The notes under the pieces are model-generated. The model was not told the DNA's origin. It worked only from the letters and a program-made list of their open reading frames with translations, and did no database searches. A stretch of 14,292 bases of DNA, taken from contig CAMZGJ010000011.1 in NCBI GenBank assembly GCA_947306375.1, positions 1 through 14,292 on the forward strand. The letters are read 5' to 3'. The position numbers and the translations under genes are program-made. Of this stretch, positions 1 through 14,292 are shown piece by piece (positions within the stretch are counted from its first letter, which is position 1; each line of letters starts with the position of its first letter). Source of the DNA: an uncultured Spirochaetales bacterium (GTDB lineage: Bacteria > Spirochaetota > Spirochaetia > Sphaerochaetales > Sphaerochaetaceae).

Positions 1-1
1 G

Positions 2-85
2 GATCAGGAATACTTGGGTAGAATTGTGAGGAGTCAGGAAGAGAGAAGCGGACTCAGGAAGGGTGGCGTAGAGTGGAACCGGTAA
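2..85 (+). CDS. Possible 3' end of a gene cut by the window edge
   Basis: The frame starting at base 2 is open for 27 codons and ends in TAA at 83-85. The peptide is hydrophilic and rich in Arg, Glu and Gly, ending in VEWNR, which would suit the charged C-terminus of a soluble protein. It would converge on the minus-strand MATE gene that ends at 156. I do not recognise a family, and 27 open codons can occur by chance. The motif tcaggaa occurs three times here (4-10, 34-40, 54-60). This is a tentative call. Confidence 0.25.
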   Translation, partial: DQEYLGRIVRSQEERSGLRKGGVEWNR

Positions 86-155
86 AGACTGACATCAATT
101 AATGCCAAACACACCGGTTTGATACCGATTATCTGCCGTATAACCGTTGGAATAA

Positions 156-1498
156 TTACAGTTTCTTAAGTTCCTTTTTATAGAACAGAATACTCATTAT
201 CAGGGCTGCAACCTCTGCAATCAGGAAGGAAAGCCAGATTGCATCCAGACCGAAAAGCTTTCCGAGAATCCATGCCGCTGGAATGAGGATGCCTATCTGT
301 CTGACTATTGAGACAATCATGCTCAGATATCCGTCTCCCAAGGCCTGGAACAGTGAACCCAGGATTATGGAGGCGGAAGCAAGCGGGAAGGACCAGGAGA
401 TTCTTCTCAGCGCAACCCCACCTATTGCCTTCATCTCATCTGATGCATTGAACAATCCCAAAAGCGTGTCCGGAAACAAATTGAAAACAAGGGCGCCCAG
501 ACTCATGATGAGAAAGGCATAGAAGGTGCCCAGCTTCAGGCCTTTCATCATCCTCTCCCTGTTTTTGGCTCCGTAATTGTATCCCAGAATGGGAAGGAGG
601 CCGCTGTTCATGCCGAAAACAGGCATGAAGACAAAGCTCTGAAGTTTAAAGTAGACTCCGAAGACTGTTGTGGCAAGCACGTTGTAGGTAATGACTATTG
701 CATTGATGAAACTTGTCATTACCGTTCCTATGCCCTGCATTACAACTGCAGGAAGGCCAACCTTCATAATGTCTGAAAAACAGGACCGGTTGAACTTGGG
801 TTTAAGCATTCTGACACCCAGATATCTGTTGCGCTTGAGGAAAATTACTCCCAGAAGCAGTGCAAAACGGTTGCAAGTGCCGCACCCCTTACGCCCATTG
901 CCGGGAAACCCAGGTAGCCGAAGATGAGGATGGGGTCAAAGATTATATTGAAGATGGCACCGCTTGCCTGGATAATCATGGGATGGATTGTGTCTCCGGT
1001 TGCCTGAAGAGATTTCTCACAGAATATGTTCAGGAAAACACCCATGGACAGACACAGACAGATTCTCAGGTATGTGACCGTCATGGAAACAAGCTCGGGA
1101 TCACCGGTGTACAGCCTGACAAAGGGTCCGGTACCGAACAGTCCTATAAGGATGAAGACAACCATGAAGGACAACTCAATTATGTAGCCGGTTTCGGCAC
1201 TCATGGCGGCGCGTTCCTCATCCCGTTCTCCCAGACGGCGGGAGATTACGGAACATATTCCCACGCTTGTTCCCACTGCAAAGGAGAACATGAGAAGCTG
1301 GAGGGGAAATGCCAGGGATACTGCGGTAAGTGCCTTTTCGCTGTAATGTGAAACAAAAATGCTGTCAACAACGTTGTACAGCGCCTGTATGAGCATGGAA
1401 AGCATTGTGGGCAATGACATGGCCATGAGAAGCTTTCCCACGGGCATAACTCCCAGTCTGTTTTCACTTAATGAAGCATTTTCAGAGTTGTCTTTCAT
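156..1498 (-). pseudogene. MATE-family multidrug/solute efflux transporter, split by a frameshift
   Basis: This encodes an inner-membrane MATE transporter, a family that exports drugs or metabolites by Na+ or H+ antiport. The N-terminal half reads from ATG 1498 and carries the typical first-helix motif QALYNVVDSIFVS, followed by about six membrane segments. It then runs out of frame after GAALATVL and stops at TAA 845-847. The C-terminal half continues in the frame one base back, with IFLKRNRYLGV and then MLKPKF, then GLPAVVMQG, a normal second-half MATE motif, and stops at 156-158. Restoring one base near 848-862 gives about 447 residues, normal for the family, so the ATG at 809 is not a real start. 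No clear Shine-Dalgarno sequence precedes ATG 1498. The cause may be a true deletion or a sequencing error. A second, intact MATE gene lies at 7615-9018. Confidence 0.88.
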
Positions 1499-1543
1499 AA
1501 CGTGAAAAGGATTGTGTATATAAAAATAATTGTCAATGGTCTT

Positions 1544-2836
1544 CTATGAGAGTCTGGCGCAGGACCGGGCAAAGTCACGGAAGATGCGCTCCCTGTCCAT
1601 TGTCAGGTAGCTGCCGTTTTCATAGAGTACTTTGCCGTCAACCATTGTCATGCAGACATCGGAGGCCTGGGCCGAGTATGTAACAAGGGCAAGGGTGTCG
1701 CAGTCCGGAACCATGTGCGGGGCATCGGCGTTCAGGGCAACTATGTCGGCCCTGAAGCCGGGTGCAAGGCATCCGGTGTCCGCTCTTCCCTGGGCCAGGG
1801 CGCCTGCGCGCGTTGCCATGTGAAGTACCGTTGCGGGTTTCATTATTGTGGGGTTGCAGCGTGCTCCGTTGTGGATTATGGATGCAATGTGCATCTCCTC
1901 AAACATGTTTACGTTGTTGTTGCTGGCCGATCCGTCGGTTCCCAGAGCAACGTTTATGCCCTTCTCCAACATGTCCGGCACGGGGGCAATTCCGCTTCCC
2001 AGTTTGAGGTTGCTGGTGGGGTTATGGACAACTGTAACGCCCCTGTCTCTGAATATCTCCATGTCCTTTTCCCCGGCCCAAACACAGTGGGCCGCGTAGG
2101 TGGGGATGTTGAAAAAACCAAGGCTGTCAAACCACTGGGCGGGGGTCATTTTATACTGCTTTATGCAATCTTCATGTTCCTGACGTGTTTCAGAAAGGTG
2201 TATGTGGAGCCTTCCGCCTATGCCCTGTATCTCCTGTGCCCATTTTGCGGCAAGTTTATGGTTGATTGTGTATTCTGCGTGAACGCTCCAGTCTATGTGG
2301 AGGCGGTCCTCATAGGCTCCGTTGAAGTTTCTGTAAAGTTCAAGGGCCTCCAGTCTGTTGACATAGCTCTCATAGTCCGTGTTCTCGTCTCCGCCCATTA
2401 CCACACGGGTCAGGTCAGCCTTGATTCCGCTCTGTCCTATGCATTTCTGAGTGACTGCAGGCATCATGTACATGTCAGAAAAGGATGTTGTACCGCCTGA
2501 GAGCATTTCGAGAATTACCATCTCCATTCCTGCAGTCAGATCCTTTTCATCCATCCTGTCCTCAACAGGCCAGACCGTATGAAGCCAGTCTGAAAGCGGA
2601 AGGTCGCTTCCCAGTCCCTTGAGAAGGTTCATTGCGCTGTGGGCATGGGAGTTCACAAGTCCGGGCATGAGTATGCGGTTGTACATGCTCTTCTCAACGT
2701 CATATTTTTTTGCCGGTCTCTGCGTGCCTATGTAGTCTATGTACTTTCCCTCAACTCCGAGGAAAGCTTTGTCCAGCACCTTGAAACATCCGTTTTCAGT
2801 TGAAATTATCTTTGCGTCCGTAAACAGAATTGACAT
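1544..2836 (-). CDS. mtaD: MtaD-type 5'-methylthioadenosine / S-adenosylhomocysteine deaminase
   Basis: This is a 430-residue amidohydrolase-superfamily enzyme expected to hydrolyse the 6-amino group of adenosine derivatives such as MTA, SAH or 5'-deoxyadenosine in the cytoplasm, giving the inosine analogue and ammonia. Visible motifs are the metal-binding HxH after the first strand (His64 and His66 in NSHAHSAMNLLKG), HIHLSE with His213 and Glu216, AAHCVW with His250, VHNPTSNLKLGSG at about 270-282, and the metal-ligand Asp301 in LGTDGSASNN. Length and motif order match the MtaD/SSNA group well. The gene starts 20 bases after the aldolase gene. A GGAG lies 12 bases before the ATG, rather far, and GCGG lies closer. 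It ends in TAG. The preferred substrate (MTA, SAH or 5'-deoxyadenosine) cannot be told from sequence; the aldolase neighbour favours the sugar-salvage substrates over SAH. Confidence 0.9.
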   Translation of the reverse strand: MSILFTDAKIISTENGCFKVLDKAFLGVEGKYIDYIGTQRPAKKYDVEKSMYNRILMPGLVNSHAHSAMNLLKGLGSDLPLSDWLHTVWPVEDRMDEKDLTAGMEMVILEMLSGGTTSFSDMYMMPAVTQKCIGQSGIKADLTRVVMGGDENTDYESYVNRLEALELYRNFNGAYEDRLHIDWSVHAEYTINHKLAAKWAQEIQGIGGRLHIHLSETRQEHEDCIKQYKMTPAQWFDSLGFFNIPTYAAHCVWAGEKDMEIFRDRGVTVVHNPTSNLKLGSGIAPVPDMLEKGINVALGTDGSASNNNVNMFEEMHIASIIHNGARCNPTIMKPATVLHMATRAGALAQGRADTGCLAPGFRADIVALNADAPHMVPDCDTLALVTYSAQASDVCMTMVDGKVLYENGSYLTMDRERIFRDFARSCARLS

Positions 2837-2856
2837 ATCCGCAAGTATCTCCGAAA

Positions 2857-3456
2857 TCAGTTCATGGGTATGACTACAGGCTCACCCACGCTCAGAGCCG
2901 CATGGTAGATCTTTGCAGCATCCTCTATGTAACAGGCCCTGACATAGGCCTGTTCAAGACTCTTTCCCACTGAAACCACCCCGTGGTTTGCAAGAAGGCA
3001 GCCTCCCCTGTCTCCAAGGTCCCTTGCAGCGTTTATTCCCAGCTGCCGTGAACCTGTGGGTGCATATTCACTTACAGGCACATCTCCTCCCAGCCAGGGC
3101 TGCATTTCAATGAGAATAAGGGGAATGCCCTTTCTCACAACCGCAAAGGCCGTTGCATAACGGGAATGAGTGTGAACAACGGCCATGACATCTGCTTTTG
3201 CCTTGTAAAGCTCCGCGTGAAGACGCCACTCGGAAGACGGTTTTCCGTCCGGCGGACACTGAAGCACAGTGCCGTCAGTCTTCATCACAACAATCCTGTC
3301 CGGTGTCATTGTGAGGTAGCTTTCCGAGCTTGGTGTTATTGCAAAGCAGTCAGGTCTGTCCTCAAGGCGGACGCTTATGTTTCCGCTTGTTGCGGCAACA
3401 AGTCCCTCGTCATACATTCTGCGTGCGTAATGTAGTATTTGTTCACCATATCCCAT
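2857..3456 (-). CDS. Class II aldolase (FucA/AraD/adducin family)
   Basis: This is a 199-residue member of the zinc-dependent class II aldolase family, which includes L-fuculose-1-phosphate aldolase, ribulose-5-phosphate 4-epimerase and methylthioribulose-1-phosphate dehydratase. It carries SGNISVR (24-30), a phosphate-binding type loop, then PSSEWRLH with the FucA-like catalytic Glu76. The zinc ligands His95 and His97 sit in VVHTHS, and His158 sits in LANHG. It is slightly shorter than E. coli FucA (215) at the C-terminus. It is the first gene of a two-gene unit with mtaD, which suggests cleavage of 5-methylthio- or 5-deoxyribulose-1-phosphate to dihydroxyacetone phosphate and an aldehyde. 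That role is inferred from context; fuculose or another sugar phosphate remains possible. The ATG at 3456 lacks a Shine-Dalgarno sequence and lies close to a candidate -10 box, so the mRNA may be leaderless. Confidence 0.87.
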   Translation of the reverse strand: MGYGEQILHYARRMYDEGLVAATSGNISVRLEDRPDCFAITPSSESYLTMTPDRIVVMKTDGTVLQCPPDGKPSSEWRLHAELYKAKADVMAVVHTHSRYATAFAVVRKGIPLILIEMQPWLGGDVPVSEYAPTGSRQLGINAARDLGDRGGCLLANHGVVSVGKSLEQAYVRACYIEDAAKIYHAALSVGEPVVIPMN

Positions 3457-3465
3457 GATAGTGAG

Positions 3466-3471
3466 ATTTTA
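3466..3471 (-). promoter_or_regulatory. Candidate -10 box for the aldolase-mtaD unit
   Basis: On the minus strand TAAAAT lies only 9 bases upstream of the aldolase ATG. Transcription from it would start within about 3 bases of the ATG, giving a nearly leaderless message, which fits the missing Shine-Dalgarno sequence. The -35 match (GTCAAC-like) is poor, so this is a weak call. Confidence 0.3.
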
Positions 3472-3488
3472 CCATTTATTGCGTTCCG

Positions 3489-3516
3489 TTGACACCCTAA
3501 TATGATTACTGATACT
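3489..3516 (+). promoter_or_regulatory. Candidate sigma-70-type promoter for the acyl-CoA synthetase gene
   Basis: A perfect -35 hexamer TTGACA (3489-3494) is followed after 16 bases by GATACT (3511-3516), which matches four of six positions of TATAAT. Transcription would begin near 3523, inside the inverted repeat at 3522-3550, and 40 bases before the ATG. A second TTGACA at 3524-3529 has no properly spaced -10 box and is better explained as an arm of the inverted repeat. Confidence 0.5.
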
Positions 3517-3521
3517 TTTTA

Positions 3522-3550
3522 TTTTGACACAATTTAAAACTATGTCAAAA
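3522..3550. promoter_or_regulatory. Perfect 8-bp inverted repeat, possible operator
   Basis: TTTTGACA (3522-3529) and TGTCAAAA (3543-3550) form an exact inverted repeat around a 13-base AT-rich centre. It lies at the predicted transcription start of the acyl-CoA synthetase gene and just before its Shine-Dalgarno sequence (GGAG at 3554-3557). The position suits a repressor of the TetR or GntR type that controls fatty-acid genes, but no regulator gene is visible in the window. An RNA hairpin that modulates translation is the alternative. Confidence 0.4.
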
Positions 3551-3563
3551 AACGGAGAACAAG

Positions 3564-5216
3564 ATGGAAAGAGTCAGAATCAGTGACAAAGAAACAATGC
3601 GAACATTCACAGATGCCCTTGCTGCAAAATACGGAGATTTGACGGCTTTCTCAAAGTACGGGGATCCGGATTCCCACGTAAGCTATGCAGAACTCCCCCG
3701 CTATGCACGTTCAATCGGTTCATATCTGATAAAACTTGGGCTGAATAAGGGAGACAAGGTTATAATTCTTGCGGACAGCTGTCCCAACTGGGCCCTTGCC
3801 TATCTGGGCATAACGTACTGTGCCATGACAGTTGTCTCAATCCTTCCGGCATTCTCAAAGGAGGAGGTTGAGAAGATTGCCCGCCACAGTGATGCAAAGG
3901 CCGTTTTTGCAAACTCCGCCAATATAGATAAAATAGAAGGGTTCGGTCTTCCCGTAATAAGACTGGATGACCTTCATGCCATTTCAGATGGCACTGATGC
4001 CGGCCATATGCCCTTCAGCGCCTTCTACTCGGAGGAGATTGAAAGAAGAATACCGGACTGCCATGATGTTGCCTCAATTATCTATACAAGCGGAACCACC
4101 GGAGAGCCCAAGGGCGTCATGCTTACCCACAGGAACCTGCTCTGGAATGCAGAGGCCTGCGTTGAGCCATTTATCCGCATACGCAGGGGGTGGAGAGTGT
4201 TTTCAATCCTTCCCATGGCCCATGTATATGAATTCACCGTAGGACTTCTGCTTGTAATGATTCCGGGCTGCCACATAACCTACTTTGCACGTCCTCTGGC
4301 CGTTACCCAGCTTCTGAAGGCCTTCAGCGAGGTAAGGCCCCACATCTGCCTAACAGTTCCCATGCTCATTGAAAAGGTCTACAACAAGGCAGTAGCGCCA
4401 AAAATCAAGGCCGGCACAAAGGCAGGCAGAATGCTCAGAATTCCCGTTGTCAGGGCATTTGTATACAGACCCATATGAAGGAAACTCAGAGCCACCTTCG
4501 GCGGCTCCATACGGTTCTTCGGCGTGGGCGGAGCTCCGCTGGATCTTGAGGTTGAGACCTTCCTTCACAAGGCCCGCTTCCCCTACGCCCTGGGATACGG
4601 CATGACGGAGACAAGCCCCATGATTGCAGGCTGCGGCCCGTCCTACCAGAGCCCGGGTTCCCTTGGGCCGGCGGTAAAGGGCGTTGAAGTTAAAATTGAA
4701 CCCAGGACCAATGAAATAATTGTCAGAAGCCCGTCCGTCATGAAGGGCTATTACAAAAACCCCGAACTTACTGCTCAGGTGCTTTCAGAAGACGGCTGGA
4801 TGAGCACGGGAGACACCGGTTATTTCACAAAGGACAACCGTCTTGTTCTCAACGGCAGGATTAAGGAGATGATTCTCACCTCCTCCGGAGAAAATATCTT
4901 CCCCGAGGCTATTGAAAGCATGCTCAACCGCATGGACTTTGTTGAGGAAAGCCTTATTATCCCTGAGGACGGAAACCTTGTGGCTCTGATAAAACTGAAT
5001 ATTGAGGAACTTGCCTCCTCCCTGAAAATCACAGCCACAGAGGCAAAAGAAAGGGCCCTTTCATATATTCAGGAGCTGCGTGAAGCGGTGAACAAAAAGC
5101 TTCCGTCCACTTCCAGAATCAGCAAAGCCGAGATTCAGGAAACTCCGTTTGAAAGGACCCCTACCGCCAAGATAAAGAGGGCGGCCGTTATAAACAACAG
5201 GAGGAAAGCGCGCTGA
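3564..5216 (+). pseudogene. AMP-forming acyl-CoA synthetase (long-chain fatty acid-CoA ligase type) with an in-frame TGA
   Basis: This belongs to the ANL superfamily, whose acyl-CoA members activate a carboxylic acid with ATP to an acyl-adenylate and transfer it to CoA. The phosphate loop TSGTTGEPKG is at codons 175-184. A TGA at 4476-4478 (codon 305) follows VYRPI. The same frame then stays open and family-like: GGAPLDLE, YGMTET (345-350), the adenosine-binding Asp in STGDTG (about 414-419), GRIKEMI, and the C-terminal TPTAK with Lys536, equivalent to the catalytic lysine. The full reading would be about 550 residues. The first 304 codons alone would lack the adenylate-binding half. The start ATG 3564 has GGAG six bases upstream. 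TGA is an ordinary stop elsewhere in the window (for example at 5214 and 10836), so a nonsense mutation or sequencing error is likeliest. Related proteins often have Gly or another small or basic residue near this point, one base change away. The chain specificity is unknown. Confidence 0.85.
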
Positions 5217-5222
5217 TCAGCG
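5211..5222. other. 12-bp palindrome joining two convergent stop codons
   Basis: The sequence cgctgatcagcg is a perfect palindrome. Its central TGATCA contains the TGA stop of the acyl-CoA synthetase (plus strand, 5214-5216) and the TGA stop of the CobW-like gene (minus strand, 5219-5217), so the two genes end back to back without spacer. It lacks the U-tract of an intrinsic terminator on either strand. Confidence 0.5.
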
Positions 5223-6419
5223 GCCAACAAGGCACTGATCCAGTTTCTCCTCAATTTCCTTCCTGTTCAGGTTCTTACCTATTATGCACAGGCGGACCAT
5301 TCTGTCCCCCAGATTCTCATCCCAGTCCTTGCGGGCCTGTTCGTTCTCGGAAAGGAACTTGTCAATCTCATTCTTTGGAGCTGAGGCAAGCCACTTTCCG
5401 TAAGGACCGCAGAGAACCTGACGACCGCTGGTTTCAAACACGTAGGCCATATCATACTCGTCAGCAAACCAGGCAAGGCCCTTGCACCTGATAATGTCGC
5501 GCGGCCAGCTGTCATTTACAAAACGTGCGAACTTGCGCCTGCTAAGCGGTGTTCTCCTGTACCAGATGAAGGTTCCTATTCCGTACTCATCCTCACTCTC
5601 ACCCTCATGTTTGTGCTCATGATGGTGATGCTCGTGCTCATGCTCATGATGGTGATGTTCATGTTCTTCTTCATTGTCATCATCGTCATCATCTTCGTCA
5701 TGATGGCCGTCAAGCTCACCCTCCTCAAGGGCCTTGCACCAGCCGGCTGCGCCGTATACTGCGTCAAAGTCAAAAGAAGATGTGGCAAGGATATCGGAGA
5801 CAGGAACGTCTCCGTGATGTGTTTCAATAATTCTGACACCCGGATGCAGTGCATTGATTACCTTGCGCAGTTTCACAAGGTCTGACTCCGTCACAAGGTC
5901 AGTCTTGTTCAGAACCAGTGTGGAGCAGAACTCTATCTGCTGGATAAGAAGGCTCTCAATGTCCTCTTCCTCAATGCTCTCCTTTTTGAGCAGGTTGTCT
6001 CCACCTGCAAACTCATCAACAAGCCTTGAGGCATCCACAACACCCACAACGTTGTCCAGTTTTCCGTTCTGAATCAGCTCAAGTTCCTGGGCTATGGGCA
6101 TGGGCTCACAGACACCGGAGGCCTCAATGAGGATGTAGTCATACAGGCCGGTGGAAATAAGCTTTTCAATGTTTTCCGCAAGCTGGCTTTTGAGGGTGCA
6201 GCAGATACAGCCGTTTGTAAGGGGCACGATGTCGCTTGTATCGGTAATGTTGCCGCCTTTGGCAATAAGGGATGCATCTACGTTGATCTCCCCTATGTCA
6301 TTGACTATTACGGCCACTTTGTAGCCCTGCTGGTTTGTCAGAACGCGGTTAAGAAGTGTGGTTTTTCCTGCTCCCAGATATCCGCAGAGCAGTGTGATGG
6401 GTGTCTTTTGGTTTTTCAT
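5217..6419 (-). CDS. CobW/COG0523-family GTPase, putative metallochaperone with a His-rich loop
   Basis: This is a 400-residue G3E-family P-loop GTPase. Members insert or deliver metals, such as Zn in ZNG1/YeiR/ZigA or Co in CobW. The Walker A motif GYLGAGKT is at 13-20, the family metal-binding motif CICC at 71-74 (in NGCICC), EASGVCEP at 99-106 and the guanine-specificity NKTD at 171-174. Residues 239-271 form a strongly charged loop of His, Glu and Asp with two copies of a nine-residue HEHHHHEHE-type repeat. After it comes the CobW C-terminal domain (GIGTFIWYRRTPLSRRKF and onward). The ATG at 6419 has a GGAG 8 bases upstream. It lies 50 bases after the RluA-like gene on the same strand and may be co-transcribed with it. 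The His-rich loop suggests Zn, Ni or Co; which one is not decidable here. Confidence 0.93.
   Translation of the reverse strand: MKNQKTPITLLCGYLGAGKTTLLNRVLTNQQGYKVAVIVNDIGEINVDASLIAKGGNITDTSDIVPLTNGCICCTLKSQLAENIEKLISTGLYDYILIEASGVCEPMPIAQELELIQNGKLDNVVGVVDASRLVDEFAGGDNLLKKESIEEEDIESLLIQQIEFCSTLVLNKTDLVTESDLVKLRKVINALHPGVRIIETHHGDVPVSDILATSSFDFDAVYGAAGWCKALEEGELDGHHDEDDDDDDNEEEHEHHHHEHEHEHHHHEHKHEGESEDEYGIGTFIWYRRTPLSRRKFARFVNDSWPRDIIRCKGLAWFADEYDMAYVFETSGRQVLCGPYGKWLASAPKNEIDKFLSENEQARKDWDENLGDRMVRLCIIGKNLNRKEIEEKLDQCLVGR
5612..5665. repeat. Tandem 27-bp repeat encoding the His-rich loop
   Basis: Two adjacent 27-base copies (5612-5638 and 5639-5665) differ at five positions. They share the identical 16-base core gctcatgatggtgatg at 5615-5630 and 5642-5657. 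On the minus strand they encode two nearly identical nine-residue His/Glu units of the CobW-like protein. The differences are almost all synonymous, which points to an in-frame duplication kept under selection for metal-binding residues. Confidence 0.75.
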
Positions 6420-6469
6420 TTTCTAACTCCGCGACAAATATAATAAAAAACGGAGGAAATGAACACCCT

Positions 6470-7618
6470 TCAGAAGGTACTCTCAATTTCAAAACTCATC
6501 AGTTTTCCGGTCTCAGGATGCTTAAAAACAAGTTTTGAAGCGCACAGACAGAGCCTCTCCGTTGTATTGCGCTCTTCTTCCCCTCCGTAGAGCCTGTCAT
6601 GAAGAACCGGCATTCCCAGACCAAAGGCGCTGTGCACGCGAATCTGGTGTGTTCTTCCTGTAAGGGGTCTGAAAAGCACCCTTGTGACAAAGCGGTCTCC
6701 GAACTTCTCAACCCTTATTCTTTTCCAACTTGTTACGGCTCTCTTTCCGAGTACCGGGTCAGGAATCTGGTACGGCCTGTTTTCAATGTCCGCCCTTATG
6801 CTCAAGTCAATCTCACCCTCTTTCTCCGTGAGAACACCGTCAACCAGGGCGGTGTACTCCTTTTCCACCTCCCTCTTTTCAAAGGATGCGGAGAGAGTAT
6901 CGTGCGCACGGTCTGTCAGGCCCAGGACCATGAGGCCGGAAGTAGCCTGGTCAAGCCTGTGGATGCAGGGCTGCTGAATACAGGTCGGAAAGAGGTTTCT
7001 GACCCTTGAGGCAACACAGTCCTTCTCAGTCTTTCCCTCTATTGAAAGAAGACCGTGGGGTTTGTTCACAACAACTATGCTCTCATCCTGATAAACAATG
7101 TCCAGCCCAAGAATATGTTTCAATATGGGCTTGCATCTTGAATCACAGGGAGTGTGGAAGGATCCTCGCTCAAAATGCCCGTCTCCCCAGTAAAACTCCG
7201 CCATTGAAAGCGGTTTTTTGCCCGCTGAGTAGCAGTAACTGAGAAGACGCGGGGCACAGCAGTCTCCCGTGCCGGACGGGGCATCCGGGAAAATGTCCTC
7301 AAGCCTTACGGTTGTTCCGTCAAAACAGCAGAACTCATAGAGCCCCAGCAGTTCTTTCCATATCTTTTTTGAATAATCCGCATCCGTTGTGCTTTGGGCG
7401 GATATTTTTCTGAATTGTTCTGCATTGAAACAGGGCGGAACATAGCCTTGACGGTCCATGAGAGAGGCATGAAGACCTGAAAAAGCCCTGAGAACGGTTT
7501 TGTCGGTACAGACCAGAATTCCAAGCATGCAGCCCTCTTCAGGTCCGCCCTTTTCAAGGCTTTCCATCCACTTGATGCAGAGTTCACGTGCCTGAGCTGA
7601 CGGGAGAACCTGATTCAC
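6470..7618 (-). CDS. RluA-family RNA pseudouridine synthase with an N-terminal accessory domain
   Basis: This 382-residue enzyme would convert uridine to pseudouridine in rRNA or tRNA. The C-terminal catalytic domain (about 173-382) has DESIVVVNKPHGLLS, the catalytic HRLDQATSG with Asp223, then GRTHQIRVH and DRLYGG. The N-terminal 170 residues match a domain seen in a subset of long RluA homologues: MLGILVC, GDCCAPRLLSY (118-128), SMAEFYWG and a CDSRC pair (158-162) before KPILKHILGLD. Its four conserved-looking Cys could bind metal. It lacks the central insertion of the roughly 550-residue gammaproteobacterial relatives. The start is GTG at 7618-7616, overlapping the TGA stop of the upstream MATE gene by four bases (GTGA), so translation is probably coupled. 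The exact target uridine cannot be assigned. Confidence 0.92.
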   Translation of the reverse strand: MNQVLPSAQARELCIKWMESLEKGGPEEGCMLGILVCTDKTVLRAFSGLHASLMDRQGYVPPCFNAEQFRKISAQSTTDADYSKKIWKELLGLYEFCCFDGTTVRLEDIFPDAPSGTGDCCAPRLLSYCYSAGKKPLSMAEFYWGDGHFERGSFHTPCDSRCKPILKHILGLDIVYQDESIVVVNKPHGLLSIEGKTEKDCVASRVRNLFPTCIQQPCIHRLDQATSGLMVLGLTDRAHDTLSASFEKREVEKEYTALVDGVLTEKEGEIDLSIRADIENRPYQIPDPVLGKRAVTSWKRIRVEKFGDRFVTRVLFRPLTGRTHQIRVHSAFGLGMPVLHDRLYGGEEERNTTERLCLCASKLVFKHPETGKLMSFEIESTF

Positions 7619-9018
7619 TGCATTCTTCCCTTACGCGTGCCGTAGATATCGCCGGCAAGGTAGTAAACCACAAAGAGAAGTGAGGTGAACGTCCAGGTTA
7701 CCGGATAACAGGCCACAACACCCGTAATAGTTCCGATTGACGGTGACACGGCCGCAAGCCAGAGCATCCTCAGGCCGCAGATTCCGAATACTGAGAACAA
7801 CGTGGGAAGAAGGGACTTTCCCGTTCCCCTTATGGCTCCGCTGAGAATCTCCACGCAGATGAAGGTGAAGAAATACGGGGCAATTGCGTTGAGCATGACG
7901 CAGCCAGTCTCTATAACATTCTCATCATGGGTGAAGAGCATGAAGCCGTAACGGCCAAAACCTATGTAAACGGCCTCAAGAACTGCTGTAAAGACTACAG
8001 AAAGCACAAGACACTCACGCACCCCGCTTCTGGCACGGTCTATAAGACCGGCTCCGTAGTTCTGTCCCACAAATGTGGTAATGGCAATTCCGAAGGCGCT
8101 TATTATCATCCAGAAGAAGCTGTCCAGCTTGCCGTATGCGGCCCATGCCGCAGCGGCATCCGTTCCGAATCCGTTTATGTTGGCCTGGATTATCAGGTTT
8201 GAGATTGTGTACATGGTGCTCTGTATTCCGGCGGGAAGTCCTATTGCTATTGTCTTCTGAAGCATTACCTTGTCGGTTCGGATTCTTCTGTACTCCAGAC
8301 GGCAGCAGTCATCCCTTTTTCTGAGTTTGAGCACAACCATGAACAGGGAAACCGCCTGGCTGAGCACGGTGGCATATGCGGCACCCTCAACATCCATTTT
8401 AAGAACACCCACAAACAGTATGTCCAGAACAATGTTTGCAATACAGCCTGCTATGAGGAACATCAGGGGACTCCTGCTGTCCCCAAAGGCTCTGAAAATA
8501 CCGCTTCCCATGTTGTACATAACAATGAGTATTCCGCCGGCAAAGTAGATTCTCATGTATCTGGCTGCCAGGAGAATAATGTCATCCGGAGTCTTTATGA
8601 GGCGCAGAAGGGGCTCTGCGGTGAAGTATCCGGCAACCGAGACGGCTATTCCGCCGTACAGGGCTATGGCAACCGCATTGTGGACGGAAAGTCTCACGCG
8701 TTCCTCGTCCCTTGCGCCGTAGTACTGGGAGATGATGACGGTGGCCCCGCTTGCAAGACCGGTGAAGAAACCTATGAGAAGGCTTATGGCCGTACCGGTT
8801 CCTCCGCCCACGGCGGCAAGAGCCTCTTTTCCCAGAAGCTGGCCCACTATTATTGCATCTGCCGTATTGTACAGCTGCTGGAAAAGCGTACCCAGGACTA
8901 TGGGGAAAAAGAAGGCAAGGAGCTGTTTCCAGATTACCCCTTCGGTTATCTGATTGTTGTAAATTGAGTCCCGTCTGTTCATCAGGCATACATTATCTTT
9001 CAGATGATTATTATTCAA
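7615..9018 (-). CDS. MATE-family efflux transporter (intact)
   Basis: This is an integral inner-membrane cation antiporter of 467 residues with twelve predicted membrane segments in two homologous halves. The first half begins with ITEGVIWKQLLAFFFPIVLG and has FQQLYNTADAIIVGQ; the second has IGLPAGIQSTMYTISNLIIQ and later VGQNYGAG. The substrate is unknown, as for most of the family. The longest frame begins at TTG 9018, but GGAAGG sits only one base before it, too close for a normal start. ATG 8982 (giving MNRRDSIYNNQ) is an equally good candidate and would trim 12 residues. It is the first gene of a minus-strand run with the RluA-like and CobW-like genes, and is divergent from the redox operon that starts at 9084. 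Confidence 0.93.
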   Translation of the reverse strand: MNNNHLKDNVCLMNRRDSIYNNQITEGVIWKQLLAFFFPIVLGTLFQQLYNTADAIIVGQLLGKEALAAVGGGTGTAISLLIGFFTGLASGATVIISQYYGARDEERVRLSVHNAVAIALYGGIAVSVAGYFTAEPLLRLIKTPDDIILLAARYMRIYFAGGILIVMYNMGSGIFRAFGDSRSPLMFLIAGCIANIVLDILFVGVLKMDVEGAAYATVLSQAVSLFMVVLKLRKRDDCCRLEYRRIRTDKVMLQKTIAIGLPAGIQSTMYTISNLIIQANINGFGTDAAAAWAAYGKLDSFFWMIISAFGIAITTFVGQNYGAGLIDRARSGVRECLVLSVVFTAVLEAVYIGFGRYGFMLFTHDENVIETGCVMLNAIAPYFFTFICVEILSGAIRGTGKSLLPTLFSVFGICGLRMLWLAAVSPSIGTITGVVACYPVTWTFTSLLFVVYYLAGDIYGTRKGRMQ

Positions 9019-9033
9019 GCCTTCCGCCCGTGC

Positions 9034-9062
9034 TTAACGCTCCCGTTCAAAAGATATATAAT
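9034..9062 (+). promoter_or_regulatory. Sigma-70-type promoter of the redox operon
   Basis: TTAACG (9034-9039) and a perfect TATAAT (9057-9062) are separated by the ideal 17 bases. Transcription would start near 9069, and the strong Shine-Dalgarno AAGGAG at 9071-9076 lies seven bases before the ATG at 9084, so the leader is very short. No operator-like repeat is obvious. Confidence 0.7.
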
Positions 9063-9083
9063 TGAAAAGAAAGGAGACTGTTC

Positions 9084-10838
9084 ATGCGCAAGGCATTACT
9101 GTGTTCAATTCTCATTGCTGCGGTTCTTGCCTCAGCCTTTGCCGCCGATATTAAATCGGATCTGGGAAAACCGTTCAAAGATTTTACAATAAGGACCGTT
9201 GACGGAGGAACATTCCGGCTTTCAGAGCAGCTTAAGACCCATGACCTTGTTTTTGTGAACAACTGGGCAACCTGGTGCGGATGGTGTGAGGTTGAGTTCC
9301 CCGCACTCCAGAGTGCCTGGGACAAATACTCCGATCGTGTTGCGGTAATTGCCGTTACACCGGATCCCAATGACACTGATGAAGACATAAGAGCCTATGC
9401 AGAGGAAAAAGGTCTTCATCTTGCAATGGCGCGTGACGATGAGCGCCTTTTCACAAAATACGCATCAGAGGGCCTTCCCTCATCCTTTATCATAGACAGG
9501 TTCGGCAACATGGCATGGATTCATGCAGGCTCCATTCCCTCACCCGCCCTGTTTGAAAGAATTTTCACCTACTTCTTCAGAGAAAACTACCCTACCACAA
9601 AGATTCTTGAGAACTTCAGAACACTTGGAATTGAAAAGCTTCCGCGCTTTTCCTCTGAAGAGCTTTCAAAAGCCGCATGCCTGAAGGGCTCCGGCATTGT
9701 TTTCAGAAATTCAGAAGATGCAAACGTCCTTCCCTTTGCTGTTTTCTCCCAAAACGGAAGAACCGGCCTTGTTTCGTCAAACGCAGCTTTTCCCGGAACG
9801 GTTTCCGCCGTGCTTGCGGACGTAACCGTGCCCATAGGCGGGGTTCTTACCTTTGACTATGAGATCAACGGCGCATCCGGTCAGAATTATACCTTCTTTG
9901 AGCTGAGTGTTGACGGCAACCCGGTAAAACGCGTGGGAAGCGTGCGGGACAGAACCTCTTATGCAATAAGCCTTCCCACCGGCAGACATGAGATTGCATT
10001 CTCCTTCTGCAACAACCACTCATACGAGGGGGACTGCTATGTGCGCATCTCAAATGTGGCAGTTAAATCCGGCTACAGCGCAAGACAGGCTCTGTCCAAA
10101 ATGCCCTCAGTTCCCGTTGCAGATGACTTTGCAATAGAATTTCTTTCCGGAGAAATACAGAAGATAAACTTTGCCGGAGACTCCTCCATTCTGGAGGAAA
10201 TCTTCGGAACGGGAATGGAATACATAATCATCAATTCAGACAAGGTAAACGCAAGAATTACAATCACCGAGGCAATGGATCCGGACATGATCTACACCCT
10301 GTCCACCTTTGACACTCCGGAAACTCTCAGTGAATTCAGAACAGATGGCAAAGGCTACACAGTCACTCTTGAGACGGAAGAAGGGATAGGAGCCTTTGTT
10401 GCAGTATCATGTGCCCAGGTTTACGTAACGGACAGCACCGCAGGTTATGTCTATTTTGCAGATGAGCAAACCGCACAGGCCCTGTTTGAGGCGGTCAGGT
10501 ACTATGACCCGGATTTCAAATGGGAAATTGTTCCTTTCACAGACTCCTCAGCCTCCTCAGCGGACAACGTTGTTGAGGAAACTCAGAGCACGTACAGGGT
10601 GCGCTTTACGGACCAGTACGGTTCACCTGTTGCCGGAGTTGCGGTGAACTTCTGCTCGGATACAACCTGCAGGCCCGTCTTCTCCGGAAGTGACGGCTAT
10701 GCGGTGTACACCGGAGAGCCCTACAACTACCACATGCAGATAATAAAGGTTCCAAAAGGCTATTCCTTTGACAGAAACGCAGAATACTACACTGAGAGGA
10801 AAAGCAGTGAATACACCCTCACGGTGACTAAAAACTGA
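9084..10838 (+). CDS. Exported TlpA-like thioredoxin with extra beta-rich domains
   Basis: This 584-residue protein has a signal peptide (1-20, cleavage after AFA). A TlpA/ResA-type thioredoxin domain follows at about 25-165, with the redox motif WATWCGWC (Cys65 and Cys68), the AVTPD strand and LPSSFIIDRFG, whose proline is the cis-Pro of the fold. The rest is unusual for TlpA. About 200-345 looks like a beta-sandwich module of the kind found in bacterial surface proteins (LTFDYEINGASG, then SFCNNHSYEGDCYVRISNVAV). About 350-490 is unassigned. About 500-584 resembles a prealbumin/CarboxypepD-regulatory-like beta domain (DQYGSPVAGVAV). Extra Cys pairs occur in those modules. It probably reduces disulfides outside the cytoplasmic membrane, and the beta domains may bind a partner or envelope polymer. 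It is the first gene of a four-gene operon, 8 bases before the next start. The Cys-X-X-Cys here is CGWC rather than the usual CxPC. Confidence 0.85.
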   Translation: MRKALLCSILIAAVLASAFAADIKSDLGKPFKDFTIRTVDGGTFRLSEQLKTHDLVFVNNWATWCGWCEVEFPALQSAWDKYSDRVAVIAVTPDPNDTDEDIRAYAEEKGLHLAMARDDERLFTKYASEGLPSSFIIDRFGNMAWIHAGSIPSPALFERIFTYFFRENYPTTKILENFRTLGIEKLPRFSSEELSKAACLKGSGIVFRNSEDANVLPFAVFSQNGRTGLVSSNAAFPGTVSAVLADVTVPIGGVLTFDYEINGASGQNYTFFELSVDGNPVKRVGSVRDRTSYAISLPTGRHEIAFSFCNNHSYEGDCYVRISNVAVKSGYSARQALSKMPSVPVADDFAIEFLSGEIQKINFAGDSSILEEIFGTGMEYIIINSDKVNARITITEAMDPDMIYTLSTFDTPETLSEFRTDGKGYTVTLETEEGIGAFVAVSCAQVYVTDSTAGYVYFADEQTAQALFEAVRYYDPDFKWEIVPFTDSSASSADNVVEETQSTYRVRFTDQYGSPVAGVAVNFCSDTTCRPVFSGSDGYAVYTGEPYNYHMQIIKVPKGYSFDRNAEYYTERKSSEYTLTVTKN

Positions 10839-10846
10839 ACGTTGAA

Positions 10847-11266
10847 ATGGCAAAAAAAGCAGCAAACGCGGTTCTTATCATTCTGACTCTTACCCTGGCC
10901 CTGCTCTTTGCAGCCTGCGCCATAGACATATACAGAGACGGCATACAGGCACGCAGATTGCGTGCAGATGCCGATATCTACACCCCTGATGCCATATCCT
11001 CACGCTTCAGAATCATCCGCCCCTTCCTTGCCTCCTGGTTTATAGCGCTGATTGCAAACTGTGTTTTCAAACTGCACGGCAGAGAGGAGGAGAAAAAAAC
11101 GGACGGAAAAAATGACGGGGTTCCGGTGTACGGGCCGCTTTGGCTCAGGTACGCACTTCTTGGTCTTGCACTTGTTTTCACGGTGCTCGGAATACTGAAC
11201 GGAGGCCTTAGGGATGTCCTTGTAAAGGCCGTGAATATATGCACCGAGTGCATAGGGCTGGGCTGA
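10847..11266 (+). CDS. Three-helix membrane protein ending in CTEC (CD1871A-like CXXC protein)
   Basis: This 139-residue protein has hydrophobic segments at about 6-25, 59-76 and 99-119, a charged loop at 77-92 and the C-terminus NICTECIGLG with Cys132 and Cys135. That ending strongly recalls the small C. difficile CD1871A family, which ends in a similar CXXC stretch but is, as I remember it, much shorter; here an N-terminal portion with two extra helices is added. The charged loop suggests it is cytoplasmic, which would place the CTEC outside, next to the thioredoxin domains encoded on both sides. A relay of thiol electrons is the inferred role. It follows the thioredoxin gene by 8 bases and precedes the polyferredoxin gene by one base. 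There is no clear Shine-Dalgarno sequence, so translation is probably coupled. Confidence 0.78.
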   Translation: MAKKAANAVLIILTLTLALLFAACAIDIYRDGIQARRLRADADIYTPDAISSRFRIIRPFLASWFIALIANCVFKLHGREEEKKTDGKNDGVPVYGPLWLRYALLGLALVFTVLGILNGGLRDVLVKAVNICTECIGLG

Positions 11267-11267
11267 T

Positions 11268-12695
11268 ATGGCAGGTGCAATCAGAACATGGTGGCAGAAC
11301 CACGGCCCCTCAAAAAGAAGACTTGTCCAGCTCTACTCCGCCCTGCTCTACAATGCTCATCTCAAGGGATTTGCGGAGGGGGAAATCTATCAGGGAATAA
11401 CCAAGGCTGTCTGCGTACCCGGACTGAATTGCTATTCATGCCCCGGTGCCGTGGGAGCCTGTCCGCTGGGAGCACTGCAGAACGCAATCTCGGCCTCTGC
11501 AAGCAGACCGGCATTCTACATAGTGGGAACGCTCCTTCTGTTCGGCCTTGCGCTGGGAAGGATGATCTGCGGCTGGGCCTGCCCCGTGGGACTTGCCCAG
11601 GAGCTTTTGTTTCATGTCCCGGTTCCCAAGATAAGGAAAAACAGGGTAACCAGAATTCTGAGCTACCTGAAATATGTAATTCTTGCCGTCTTTGTAATAC
11701 TGATTCCGGCAATCTACGCCTTCAGCAGACTGCCTTTCCCGGCCTTCTGCAAGTTCATCTGCCCCGCAGGAACAGCCGAGGGAGCCATTGGCCTTCTTGC
11801 CAACCCGGCCAATGCGGAAAAACTGGGCATGCTGGGTCTTTTATTCACACGCAAGTTCATAATCCTTGTGGCTGTAATAACAGCATCAATGTTCCTCTTC
11901 AGACCCTTCTGCCGCTTTGTCTGCCCCCTGGGGGCAATCTACGGCCTCATGACACGCATTGCAGTGTGGGGAGTAAGAGTTGATGATAAAAAGTGCATAA
12001 ACTGCGGAGCCTGCGTGCGTGAATGCAAAATGGACATAAGGCACGTGGGAGACCACGAGTGCATTCACTGCGGAAAGTGCATTAATGTGTGTCCGGCCAA
12101 AGCCATAAGCTTTGCCTCAAAAAAGCGCGGGGGCAAAAAGATTGCCGCAGCTGCAGCGGTAATACTTCTTGCAGGAGCCCTTGTTTACTACAACTTCATC
12201 TACAGCACTCCCGGGAAGAATACACCTCCGTCACCCGTTCAGGTTGCCGGGGATATACCGTCCGCTGCCACGGGAAGCGCCCCCGGACAGATGTTTCCGG
12301 ATTTTGAACTTAAGTGTGCTGACGGCAGCACATACAGGCTGTCGGACCACAGGGGCAAGGTTGTTGTGATAAATATCTGGGCCACATGGTGCAACCCCTG
12401 CGTGAAGGAACTGCCCTATTTTGAAAAACTGTACAATGAGCACGGAGACAGAGTGAGCGTTATTGCAGTCCACTCTGACCTTGTGACGGATGACGTTCAG
12501 GCCTTTTTGAAGGACTTTGACTTCAAAATGCCCGTTTCATACACGGATGTAAAATGCGTTACGGACAATCTTGAAGACTCCATAATGCTGCCCATAACAA
12601 TTGTTCTGGATAAAAACGGTGTTGTGACCTACAACAAGGCCCGCTCCGTGACCTATGATGTGCTGGAGCTGCTTGTAGCCGAAGGAGCAAAATGA
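11268..12695 (+). CDS. NapH-like membrane polyferredoxin fused to a TlpA thioredoxin domain
   Basis: This 475-residue fusion has an N-terminal Cys cluster (Cys49, 55, 58 and 65 in the LNCYSCP and GACPLGAL region). Membrane helices at about 83-100, 132-150 and 195-211 follow, with the NapH/CcoG-type motifs CGWACPVG (101-108), CKFICPAG (161-168) and CRFVCPLG (215-222). A two-cluster ferredoxin domain comes next, with CINCGACVREC (243-253) and CIHCGKCINVCP (265-276). A fourth helix at about 291-309 leads to a TlpA domain at about 337-475 with WATWCNPC (Cys375 and Cys378) and the cis-Pro loop LPITIVLD. With the ferredoxin part in the cytoplasm, the last helix puts the thioredoxin domain outside. 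It therefore looks like a transmembrane conduit from low-potential iron-sulfur donors or quinol to periplasmic disulfides. The stop codon overlaps the symporter start by four bases (ATGA). Confidence 0.88.
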   Translation: MAGAIRTWWQNHGPSKRRLVQLYSALLYNAHLKGFAEGEIYQGITKAVCVPGLNCYSCPGAVGACPLGALQNAISASASRPAFYIVGTLLLFGLALGRMICGWACPVGLAQELLFHVPVPKIRKNRVTRILSYLKYVILAVFVILIPAIYAFSRLPFPAFCKFICPAGTAEGAIGLLANPANAEKLGMLGLLFTRKFIILVAVITASMFLFRPFCRFVCPLGAIYGLMTRIAVWGVRVDDKKCINCGACVRECKMDIRHVGDHECIHCGKCINVCPAKAISFASKKRGGKKIAAAAAVILLAGALVYYNFIYSTPGKNTPPSPVQVAGDIPSAATGSAPGQMFPDFELKCADGSTYRLSDHRGKVVVINIWATWCNPCVKELPYFEKLYNEHGDRVSVIAVHSDLVTDDVQAFLKDFDFKMPVSYTDVKCVTDNLEDSIMLPITIVLDKNGVVTYNKARSVTYDVLELLVAEGAK

Positions 12696-13906
12696 TTAAG
12701 AATTTTTTTGACAGGAAGAACCTTTTCATCAGAGTTGCCGCAGGTTTTGTGCTGGGAATAATCCTTGGCCTTGCGGCCCCGTCTTTCAGCACGGCAACAA
12801 AGGTTGTGGGAGACATTTACCTGAACCTGATAAAACTGATGATTATTCCCATAGTCATCTGCGCCGTCTTCTGCGGAATTGCTAACATAAAGGACACGGC
12901 CCTCTTGAGGAAAATAGGTCTGCGCACAGTGGGTCTTTACGTTCTGTTGTTTGCATCCAGCAGCGCGGTCTCTCTTATCATTGTCTTTCTGCTGCGTCCC
13001 GGACGCGGCATGGTACTGGCAAAAGACGTGGTTTTTGACTCCGCCCTTGCAAATACCACCGTTTCAGGCTTTTTCAACACCATAGTCCCCTCCAACATAT
13101 TCAAGGCCCTGGCGGACGGAAGCACACTGCCGGTAATCCTCTTTACCGTCATATTTGCCGTTGCGGTGCTCTCAATCAGGGAAAAAGGCAGAATAATCAT
13201 TGACTTCATGAACAGCCTCTCGGAGGCCTTTTTCAGAATGCTGGGGTACTTCATGGAATTATCGCCCCTGGGCGTAATGTCTCTCATGGCTTACTCCACC
13301 GCTGTCTACGGAGGCGGAATATTCAGCTCCCTGGCCAGGTACATCTTCTGCTGCTGGGCCTGCTGCATTGCCGTCTACTTCACCGTCATGGTCCTGCCCA
13401 CCTGCCTCATTACCGGAATGAGCCCGGCCCGTTTCATCAGAGCCTGCGGCAAAATCTCGCTTGTCACCCTCTCCACAACGTCCTCTGCGGCCACGCTGCC
13501 CACCACAATCAACGTCAGCGTCAATGACCTGGGCGCCCCCTCTGAAATCTCCGCCTTCACACTCCCACTGGGCTGCACAATCAACATGTGCGGCGGAGCC
13601 TGCTCCTTCTGCTGTCTGGCCGTTTTCACGGCCGATATCTACAACCTCCACCTCAGTCTGGGAACAATAGTTCTGATGGTTGCAGTTGCCACGCTCATAA
13701 ACATGGCAGCCCCCGGAATTCCCGGAGGCGGAGTAATACTGGGAGCATCTTTCCTCTCAATCTTCGGCCTGCCGTTTGATGTAATGGCTCTCATAGGAGG
13801 CTTCTACAGGCTTCTGGACATGGCCTTCACAACACTGAACGTGCTGGGAGATGTTTCTGCAAATCTTATAATAGCCAAATCCGTAGGGGAAAAAATCAAA
13901 GCCTGA
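12692..13906 (+). CDS. DAACS-family (dicarboxylate/amino acid:cation) symporter, Cys-rich variant
   Basis: This 404-residue membrane carrier is of the GltPh/GltP/SstT/TcyP family. The family re-entrant loop motifs are present: TTSSAATLP (262-270), PLGCTINMCGG (292-302), GIPGGG (342-347) and LLDMAFTTLNVLGD (374-387). Departures from GltPh are marked. NMDGT is NMCGG, losing an Asp that helps bind Na+. The Arg that binds the substrate carboxylate (R397) is Phe379, and the Asp equivalent to D390 is Tyr372; D394, N401 and D405 are kept (Asp376, Asn383, Asp387). There are 13 Cys, including CCWACC at 220-225. The substrate is therefore probably not an acidic amino acid; a neutral or sulfur compound is possible. 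The start has GGAG upstream and overlaps the redox gene's stop (ATGA), so the two are made together. Its 3' end overlaps the convergent gene by 11 bases. Confidence 0.88.
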   Translation: MIKNFFDRKNLFIRVAAGFVLGIILGLAAPSFSTATKVVGDIYLNLIKLMIIPIVICAVFCGIANIKDTALLRKIGLRTVGLYVLLFASSSAVSLIIVFLLRPGRGMVLAKDVVFDSALANTTVSGFFNTIVPSNIFKALADGSTLPVILFTVIFAVAVLSIREKGRIIIDFMNSLSEAFFRMLGYFMELSPLGVMSLMAYSTAVYGGGIFSSLARYIFCCWACCIAVYFTVMVLPTCLITGMSPARFIRACGKISLVTLSTTSSAATLPTTINVSVNDLGAPSEISAFTLPLGCTINMCGGACSFCCLAVFTADIYNLHLSLGTIVLMVAVATLINMAAPGIPGGGVILGASFLSIFGLPFDVMALIGGFYRLLDMAFTTLNVLGDVSANLIIAKSVGEKIKA

Positions 13907-14292
13907 TTGTCAGGACATTAAGCCCCACAAGACTCTGGTAGGTAACCTCTTTTGCCATTTTCATGACCATACGGATTCCCAGGTCTTTCATCGGATCCTT
14001 TGAATTGTTTCTCTTCTGAACACGCTCAATGGGATTGAAATGCACGCAGTCATCCTTGATTCTGAGAACCAGGGAATCCTCACTGTAAATGGCCCGGACC
14101 TGCACAATATGACTCTTGTTGTCCTTAGTAAAGCCGTGAAGGACAACGTTTGAGACCATCTCCTCAAGGCATAACTCTGCGTGCATAGCAGAGGAACTGT
14201 CCATACCGTGGTCAAGACAGAAGGCATGGACCTTCTCGGCCATGTTCACAGTTTCCTCTATGGTCCGGATGTCACACTCCAGCCTGTCATTT
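13896..14292 (-). CDS. RsbW/SpoIIAB-like ATP-binding (HATPase_c) domain, C-terminal part of a gene cut by the window
   Basis: This is an anti-sigma-factor-type GHKL kinase domain. The N box ELCLEEMVSNVVLHG holds the Mg-binding Glu and Asn. DDCVHFNP is the G1-like box, and LGIRMVMKMAK is the G2 box before the end GLNVLTIRL. A GTG at 14249 could serve as a start, but the frame is open without a stop up to the window edge. The extra upstream residues (NDRLECDIRTIEETVNMA) also fit the start of this domain, so the true N-terminus lies outside. In gut anaerobes similar domains occur at the C-terminus of longer, sometimes membrane-bound proteins; that is from memory. It may phosphorylate or bind a regulatory partner. 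It converges on the symporter gene, overlapping it by 11 bases. Confidence 0.83.
   Translation of the reverse strand, partial: NDRLECDIRTIEETVNMAEKVHAFCLDHGMDSSSAMHAELCLEEMVSNVVLHGFTKDNKSHIVQVRAIYSEDSLVLRIKDDCVHFNPIERVQKRNNSKDPMKDLGIRMVMKMAKEVTYQSLVGLNVLTIRL
13902..13914. other. Small inverted repeat at the convergent gene ends
   Basis: CCTGA, a three-base centre TTG, then TCAGG forms a 5-bp stem just at the overlapping 3' ends of the symporter and the ATPase-domain gene. It has no U-tract and is too short to be a convincing intrinsic terminator. Confidence 0.25.

Follow-up and report, generated by a model that had tools for sequence, protein, structure and literature searches.

Gene content of the locus

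This study examined a 14,292-nucleotide stretch of contig CAMZGJ010000011.1 (positions 1 to 14,292, forward strand; hereafter the window) from an uncultured Spirochaetales bacterium, in which four consecutive plus-strand open reading frames (ORFs) include a candidate system for reducing thiols outside the cytoplasm. The assembly (GCA_947306375.1, here G000) is 58% complete at 1.07 Mb. The ORFs, at 9084-10838, 10847-11266, 11268-12695 and 12692-13906, are spaced in order by a gap of 8 bases, a gap of 1 base and an overlap of 4 bases, in agreement with an earlier description made from the letters alone (the sequence-only reading), and the CGWC, C-terminal CTEC and CNPC motifs and the cysteine-rich symporter (13 Cys) that it listed are all present. 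It had also placed the four genes behind one promoter. A possible sigma-70-like site (TTAACG-17-TATAAT, 10/12 matches) is indeed well placed before gene 1 at 9034-9062 (+), but it is statistically not significant, the region 8900-14292 holding 7 such sites against 5.0 +/- 2.2 in shuffled sequence.

Gene 1 (9084-10838, +) encodes a TlpA-like thioredoxin of 584 amino acids with a CGWC motif, taken to be exported from a signal peptide judged by eye. Its AhpC-TSA/Redoxin domain spans residues 28-152, and the long C-terminal region matched no family above cut-off in a Pfam scan. Homologs of the full protein numbered 41 among 7,999 candidates scored; five match at 64-98% across the full length, and a further four at 29-33% across 82-99% of the length. 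Several cysteines were seen in the C-terminal region, residues 160-584.

Gene 2 (10847-11266, +) encodes a membrane protein of 139 amino acids ending in ICTECIGLG, with three transmembrane (TM) segments predicted by hydropathy (8-26, 56-74 and 103-121). It belongs to the CD1871A family, scoring 40.3 bits against NF040920 (cut-off 32); it differs from the family in its length and three TM segments, the model covering 38 C-terminal positions and many members having 42-68 amino acids.

Gene 3 (11268-12695, +) joins Fer4_5, Fer4 and Redoxin/AhpC-TSA matches in one protein. Residues 1-290 (11268-12137) form a NapH-like iron-sulfur (Fe-S) membrane domain with predicted TM helices, supported by Fer4_5 at 65.2 bits (cut-off 22) and Fer4 at 38.8 (cut-off 21.1), and the scores against the dedicated NapH models fall below their cut-offs (TIGR02163, 66.3 against 213.05; NF007013, 52.5 against 234). 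A TM helix at about residues 292-310 (12141-12197) separates the ferredoxin part from a TlpA/ResA-like extracytoplasmic domain (12261-12695), which carries WCNPC and so combines an AhpC-TSA/Redoxin match with WCxxC. The ResA model NF002854 (cut-off 170) scored 91.7 for gene 3 and 67.2 for gene 1, both below cut-off, and a fold search with the gene 3 TlpA domain returned ResA and the pneumococcal Etrx1/Etrx2 among its top matches.

Conservation of the three-gene module

Recurrence of the genes was assessed at 100 loci, of which 20 came from relatives by gene 3 similarity (20 of 23 close-match genomes) and 80 were named loci, the best 80 of at least 580 confirmed relatives; judging by titles, the latter come almost entirely from Clostridia and include a single Fretibacterium and a single Anaeroplasma. 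A CTEC ORF lay upstream of, and co-directional with, the Fe-S gene at 100/100 loci, within 46 bases in 98 of them and at 151 and 244 bases in the other two (L068 and L042, respectively). The CTEC match occurred once per locus among the 9,987 ORFs of the 100 loci; at one locus (L077) the matched ORF lacked the C-terminal motif. A TlpA domain was fused to the Fe-S protein at 64 loci and encoded no more than 900 bp away, on the same strand, at a further 32, for a sum of 96/100. The four remaining loci comprise one with a masked stretch whose tail resembles TlpA (L041), one where none was seen (L046) and two cut at contig ends (L103 and L128).

In a set of 61 relatives, 23 genomes have a close match to the Fe-S protein (40-100% identity), and comparison by hand showed these to be exactly the 23 that carry CD1871A. 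In the annotation of Peptoclostridium acidaminophilum, a 'CD1871A family CXXC motif-containing protein' adjoins a '4Fe-4S binding protein', and a 'TlpA disulfide reductase family protein' is found further upstream, past an opposite-strand gene. The joint recurrence of the CTEC gene, the Fe-S gene and TlpA in distant genomes goes beyond chance. The results support genes 1-3 as a conserved module, one that occurs in many anaerobes. Not every locus has a second, free TlpA resembling gene 1: with both strands and the whole of each fetched stretch considered, some stretches possibly being truncated, 31 of the 64 fused loci showed an additional TlpA ORF.

Distribution relative to DsbD/CcdA

The CcdA/DsbD proteins (PF02683) supply electrons to extracytoplasmic thioredoxin-fold proteins. 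At the CcdA loci of the relatives, a thioredoxin-fold partner adjoined or was fused in 10 of 11 cases: CcdA adjoined TlpA in 4/11 (L180, L182, L184, L185), shared an ORF with it in 1/11 (L183) and adjoined a Thioredoxin-domain ORF in 5/11 (L176-L179, L181), and at L175 no such partner was identified. Protein databases contain both TlpA-CcdA and TlpA-Fe-S fusions. The module resembles CcdA/DsbD with its TlpA, ResA or Etrx partners in that electrons would be delivered to thioredoxin-fold proteins outside, and differs in using an Fe-S membrane protein and a CTEC protein; none of the window's four proteins matched PF02683 at E 0.01.

The two systems seldom coexist among relatives. In 101 related genomes, CD1871A was present in 35 and DsbD_TM in 54, while 6 genomes had both and 18 had neither (p 8e-8 by Fisher's test, kinship ignored); within family f1 the counts were 29, 27 and 3 for both. 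In genus g11, one genome (G080) has the module and its congeners G012, G029, G065, G074 and G084 have CcdA. The window's own genome, 58% complete, yielded no DsbD_TM match. When 40 of the 80 named genomes were searched, DsbD_TM appeared at E 0.001 in 4 and over the curated cut-off in 1; the 30 fused-form genomes among those 40, which were selected by similarity, had 3 sub-cut-off matches and 0 over cut-off, compared with 128/246 in a sample of Clostridia.

That sample, the class of an Oscillospiraceae metagenome-assembled genome (G101), gave a much weaker exclusion: CD1871A in 41 of 246 genomes, DsbD_TM in 129 and both in 15 (p 0.04); with curated cut-offs the figures become 39, 128 and 13 (p 0.014). 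The claim of the sequence-only reading that this operon replaces the DsbD route, with external thiols reduced by Fe-S chemistry instead, therefore has good genomic support among relatives, but carries over to the Clostridia only weakly.

Invariant cysteines and predicted sidedness

The Fe-S domain of gene 3 contains ten invariant cysteines in the membrane region and eight in the ferredoxin motifs. The ten were kept in 101/101 sequences, although the search patterns for the 80 named loci include C55, C58, C215 and C219, so that invariance there is independent only for the other six. Because the ferredoxin domain is placed inside, C101, C105, C215 and C219 are assigned to the inner face and C49, C55, C58, C65, C161 and C165 to the outer side, both by prediction. 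In six NapH-like paralogs, obtained from 11 loci, the inner pairs were kept, whereas C49, C55, C58, C161 and C165 aligned to a cysteine in 0/6. Gene 3 resembles NapH/NosR/PceC-type proteins (PF12801) in its two predicted inner-face CX3CP pairs, membrane segments and two ferredoxin motifs, and differs from them in its five invariant outer cysteines and in its TlpA and CTEC partners.

In gene 3, hydrophobic segments scoring above 1.6 were found at 83-101, 134-152, 197-215 and 292-310. The mean number of Lys and Arg residues across 54 sequences was 5.7 for residues 100-131 and 13.2 for 211-285, against 3.0 for 36-82 and 2.3 for 150-191. The AlphaFold model (m4918660e8133; predicted local distance difference test, pLDDT, 82.7; predicted template modelling score, pTM, 0.74) contains helices at 82-99, 134-151, 180-209 and 287-311, with short ones at 213-227. 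From hydropathy, charge and model, the membrane is predicted to separate the ferredoxin domain from the TlpA domain, as the sequence-only reading had supposed, with the ferredoxin clusters inside and the outer cysteines, CTEC and TlpA outside. A hydrophobic segment likewise lies between ferredoxin and TlpA in 59/64 fused forms, and at unfused loci 34/35 free TlpA ORFs nearby have one before the domain. Among the 60 sequence matches listed, of 186 to solved structures, the best stretches fell within the ferredoxin domain, starting at profile position 218; the fold search with gene 3 was taken up by TlpA-domain matches and says nothing on the membrane domain.

For gene 2, CxEC was the C-terminal motif in 96/99 homologs. 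Those with a C-terminal CxxC had an odd predicted TM count (1, 3, 5 or 7) in 87/99 cases and an even one in 12, and in 30/32 short single-TM homologs the N-terminal flank was more positively charged than the C-terminal flank; the CTEC tail is therefore predicted to be extracytoplasmic by the positive-inside rule.

Two in-frame TGA codons were encountered during these comparisons. At L193, about positions 1425-1535 (G227:C17:29424-29534, +), the CTEC motif reads TGA-L-E-C-IGIG, with a candidate selenocysteine at the first cysteine position, and this Clostridia genome encodes a full-length SelB. A hairpin 3' of the TGA scored no better than shuffles (z -0.43), five weak Rfam matches included no selenocysteine element, no TGA was present among the other matches listed for the family of this genome, and a search by pattern across 391 genomes returned the L193 case alone; the codon may be a mutation or read error. 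At L194 (G031:C186:36500-38500, -), an in-frame TGA in the Fe-S protein stands where relatives have a cysteine ligand in their final ferredoxin motif (equivalent to C268 in gene 3), and may be an error. Other flagged stops in Fe-S matches were the natural gene end in the two loci read, L141 and L154.

Proposed mechanism and alternatives

Taken together, the linkage of the genes, the invariant cysteines, the tendency of relatives to have either the module or DsbD, and the predicted sidedness, all computed above, make it rather probable that genes 1-3 constitute a transmembrane thiol reductase of anaerobes which does the job of CcdA/DsbD by Fe-S chemistry, a known job performed by different parts. 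The clusters, their donor, the direction of flow, the chemistry of the CTEC tail and the final substrate are what we infer beyond those results. A low-potential cytosolic donor, most likely ferredoxin, would reduce two putative cytosolic [4Fe-4S] clusters, from which electrons would cross the membrane via cysteine-bound centres, first at the inner face (C101, C105, C215, C219) and next at the outer face (C49, C55, C58, C65, C161, C165). Outside, the CTEC tail of the CD1871A protein would act as a one- to two-electron converter, or adjoin it, and would pass a dithiol to the TlpA domains, fused and free, which could then maintain extracytoplasmic disulfides in the reduced state.

Ferredoxin:thioredoxin reductase is a soluble enzyme in which an Fe-S centre meets a disulfide; a similar meeting here would solve the one- to two-electron problem, and C55/C58 and CxEC are candidates for the cluster-adjacent, redox-active CxxC of such chemistry. 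The more specific proposal, a membrane-spanning ferredoxin:thioredoxin reductase of an undescribed kind, is put forward tentatively, as somewhat less likely than not. In it an Fe-S chain would lead to an outer site of six cysteines, and a swinging tail with CxEC, or perhaps UxEC in one species, would convert single electrons into dithiols; the whole would substitute for CcdA/DsbD in many anaerobes.

That NapH-like proteins carry electrons to external partners is already known (PMC8238504, PMC5928378, in the portions of both consulted). According to the portion of PMC8238504, the NapH-like protein of flavinylation systems is believed to relay electrons through the membrane to a partner outside, which is the likeness to the present module; those systems are defined by a flavinylation gene cluster, whereas the module pairs its Fe-S protein with TlpA and a CTEC protein. 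The Pfam scan matched no FMN-binding family in genes 1-3. The Fe-S/CTEC/TlpA combination was not described in the titles or abstract starts of the open-licence papers searched, and no occurrence of 'CD1871A' was found among such papers. How anaerobes without CcdA/DsbD maintain reduced exported thiols is not obvious, and a small Fe-S module standing in for CcdA would offer a definite, testable answer. If this is correct, the CD1871A family would gain a role and extracytoplasmic thiol chemistry would be tied directly to the ferredoxin pool. One possible use is the repair of exported proteins, which is plausible since SpMsrAB2 is named as a redox partner of Etrx in the excerpt of PMC3914529.

Several observations weigh against this interpretation. 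C65 is shared by 5/6 NapH-like paralogs, and one of them (L162) has a CP elsewhere within the C161/C165 loop. The weak hydrophobic stretch at 218-236 scores 1.42 (usual threshold 1.6) and would, if membrane-crossing, flip the sidedness of the ferredoxin domain; the model shows two short helices there. Model confidence is low for the outer motif, residues 47-62 (pLDDT <50), and the helices before it, 16-28 and 32-37, are short, making the first membrane crossing unsure. No gene for a donor was identified beside the module. To these may be added the six relatives that carry both the module marker and DsbD/CcdA, the eighteen with neither, and the weak exclusion in Clostridia. Finally, the part of PMC5928378 consulted gives at most eight Fe per NosR, a figure its authors read as favouring disulfides in the CX3CP motifs.

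The argument for disulfides in NosR-type CX3CP motifs also favours an account in which the role is the same and the membrane cysteines form a relay of disulfide pairs, Fe-S clusters being only cytosolic, as in a DsbD-like relay on a NapH-like scaffold. The ten invariant membrane-region cysteines would make five possible pairs. The six outer and four inner cysteines would also fit at least two clusters, however, and one-electron clusters in the cytosol would still require a converter. This account appears unlikely, if worth keeping in view. Also improbable is a quinol-driven scheme, with menaquinol oxidised in the membrane domain and the ferredoxin domain working with some other partner; its basis is the proposal of quinol oxidation by NapH membrane segments, reported in the consulted part of PMC5928378. 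Menaquinol would probably be too positive for keeping TlpA dithiols reduced. Reverse flow or sensing, with external dithiols oxidised via TlpA and CTEC and electrons entering the cell, is more doubtful still: direction is not fixed by anatomy alone, but the ResA- and Etrx-like folds and the occupancy of the CcdA slot point to reduction.

The adjoining symporter

Gene 4 (12692-13906, +) encodes a symporter of 404 amino acids in the SDF family (PF00375, 316.1 bits), scoring 195.9 against the DctA model NF002461 (cut-off 513). The sequence-only reading had coupled it to the module as the importer of the reduced product of an external disulfide, and the 4-base overlap in the window and a 5-base gap before the symporter in the same-genus genome G002 would suit such coupling. 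An SDF-like ORF near the module was found at 1/100 loci, that of G002. In a survey of the 101 relatives, orthologs at 68-79% identity occurred in G001, G013 and G020, all without a CD1871A match, and orthologs at 68-71% in G035, G070 and G077 were on other contigs than the module. The G070 copy comes after two Band_7 proteins, and the arrangement in G020, G035 and G077 looked alike by eye.

Transporter coupling was therefore rejected as a general feature; the version in which the symporter imports a reduced product is scarcely credible, and the gene is probably a passer-by. When aligned with aspartate transporters, the symporter carries Phe at the position of an Arg, and the Asp of their NMDGT motif is replaced by Cys. 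Because of these two replacements an acidic substrate is unlikely; the protein probably takes a neutral substrate with altered ion coupling.

Possible origin of the module

A tree of 101 Fe-S domains, with a midpoint root for drawing only, grouped the window and G002 with unfused Clostridia (L053, L091, L111 and L116; support 97/95), and the Fe-S domain of G035 sat in another Clostridia group. These groupings suggest that the gene was acquired laterally from Clostridia, possibly on more than one occasion, and that fusion to TlpA happened repeatedly. The spirochaete Fe-S gene, in the window (11268-12137) and at L032, was seen to branch among Clostridia and apart from that of G035.

Carriage of the module by mobile elements was rejected. 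In IMG/VR, 27 stretches had the search pattern and 0 were confirmed relatives; 72,556 plasmids yielded one record, an 809-kb replicon typed as non-mobilizable.

Elsewhere in the window, an AMP-dependent-ligase-like gene at 3564-5216 (+) shows up as two same-frame ORFs (3564-4478 and 4524-5216), and two MATE-like ORFs at 156-1498 (-) resemble halves of one gene in different frames.

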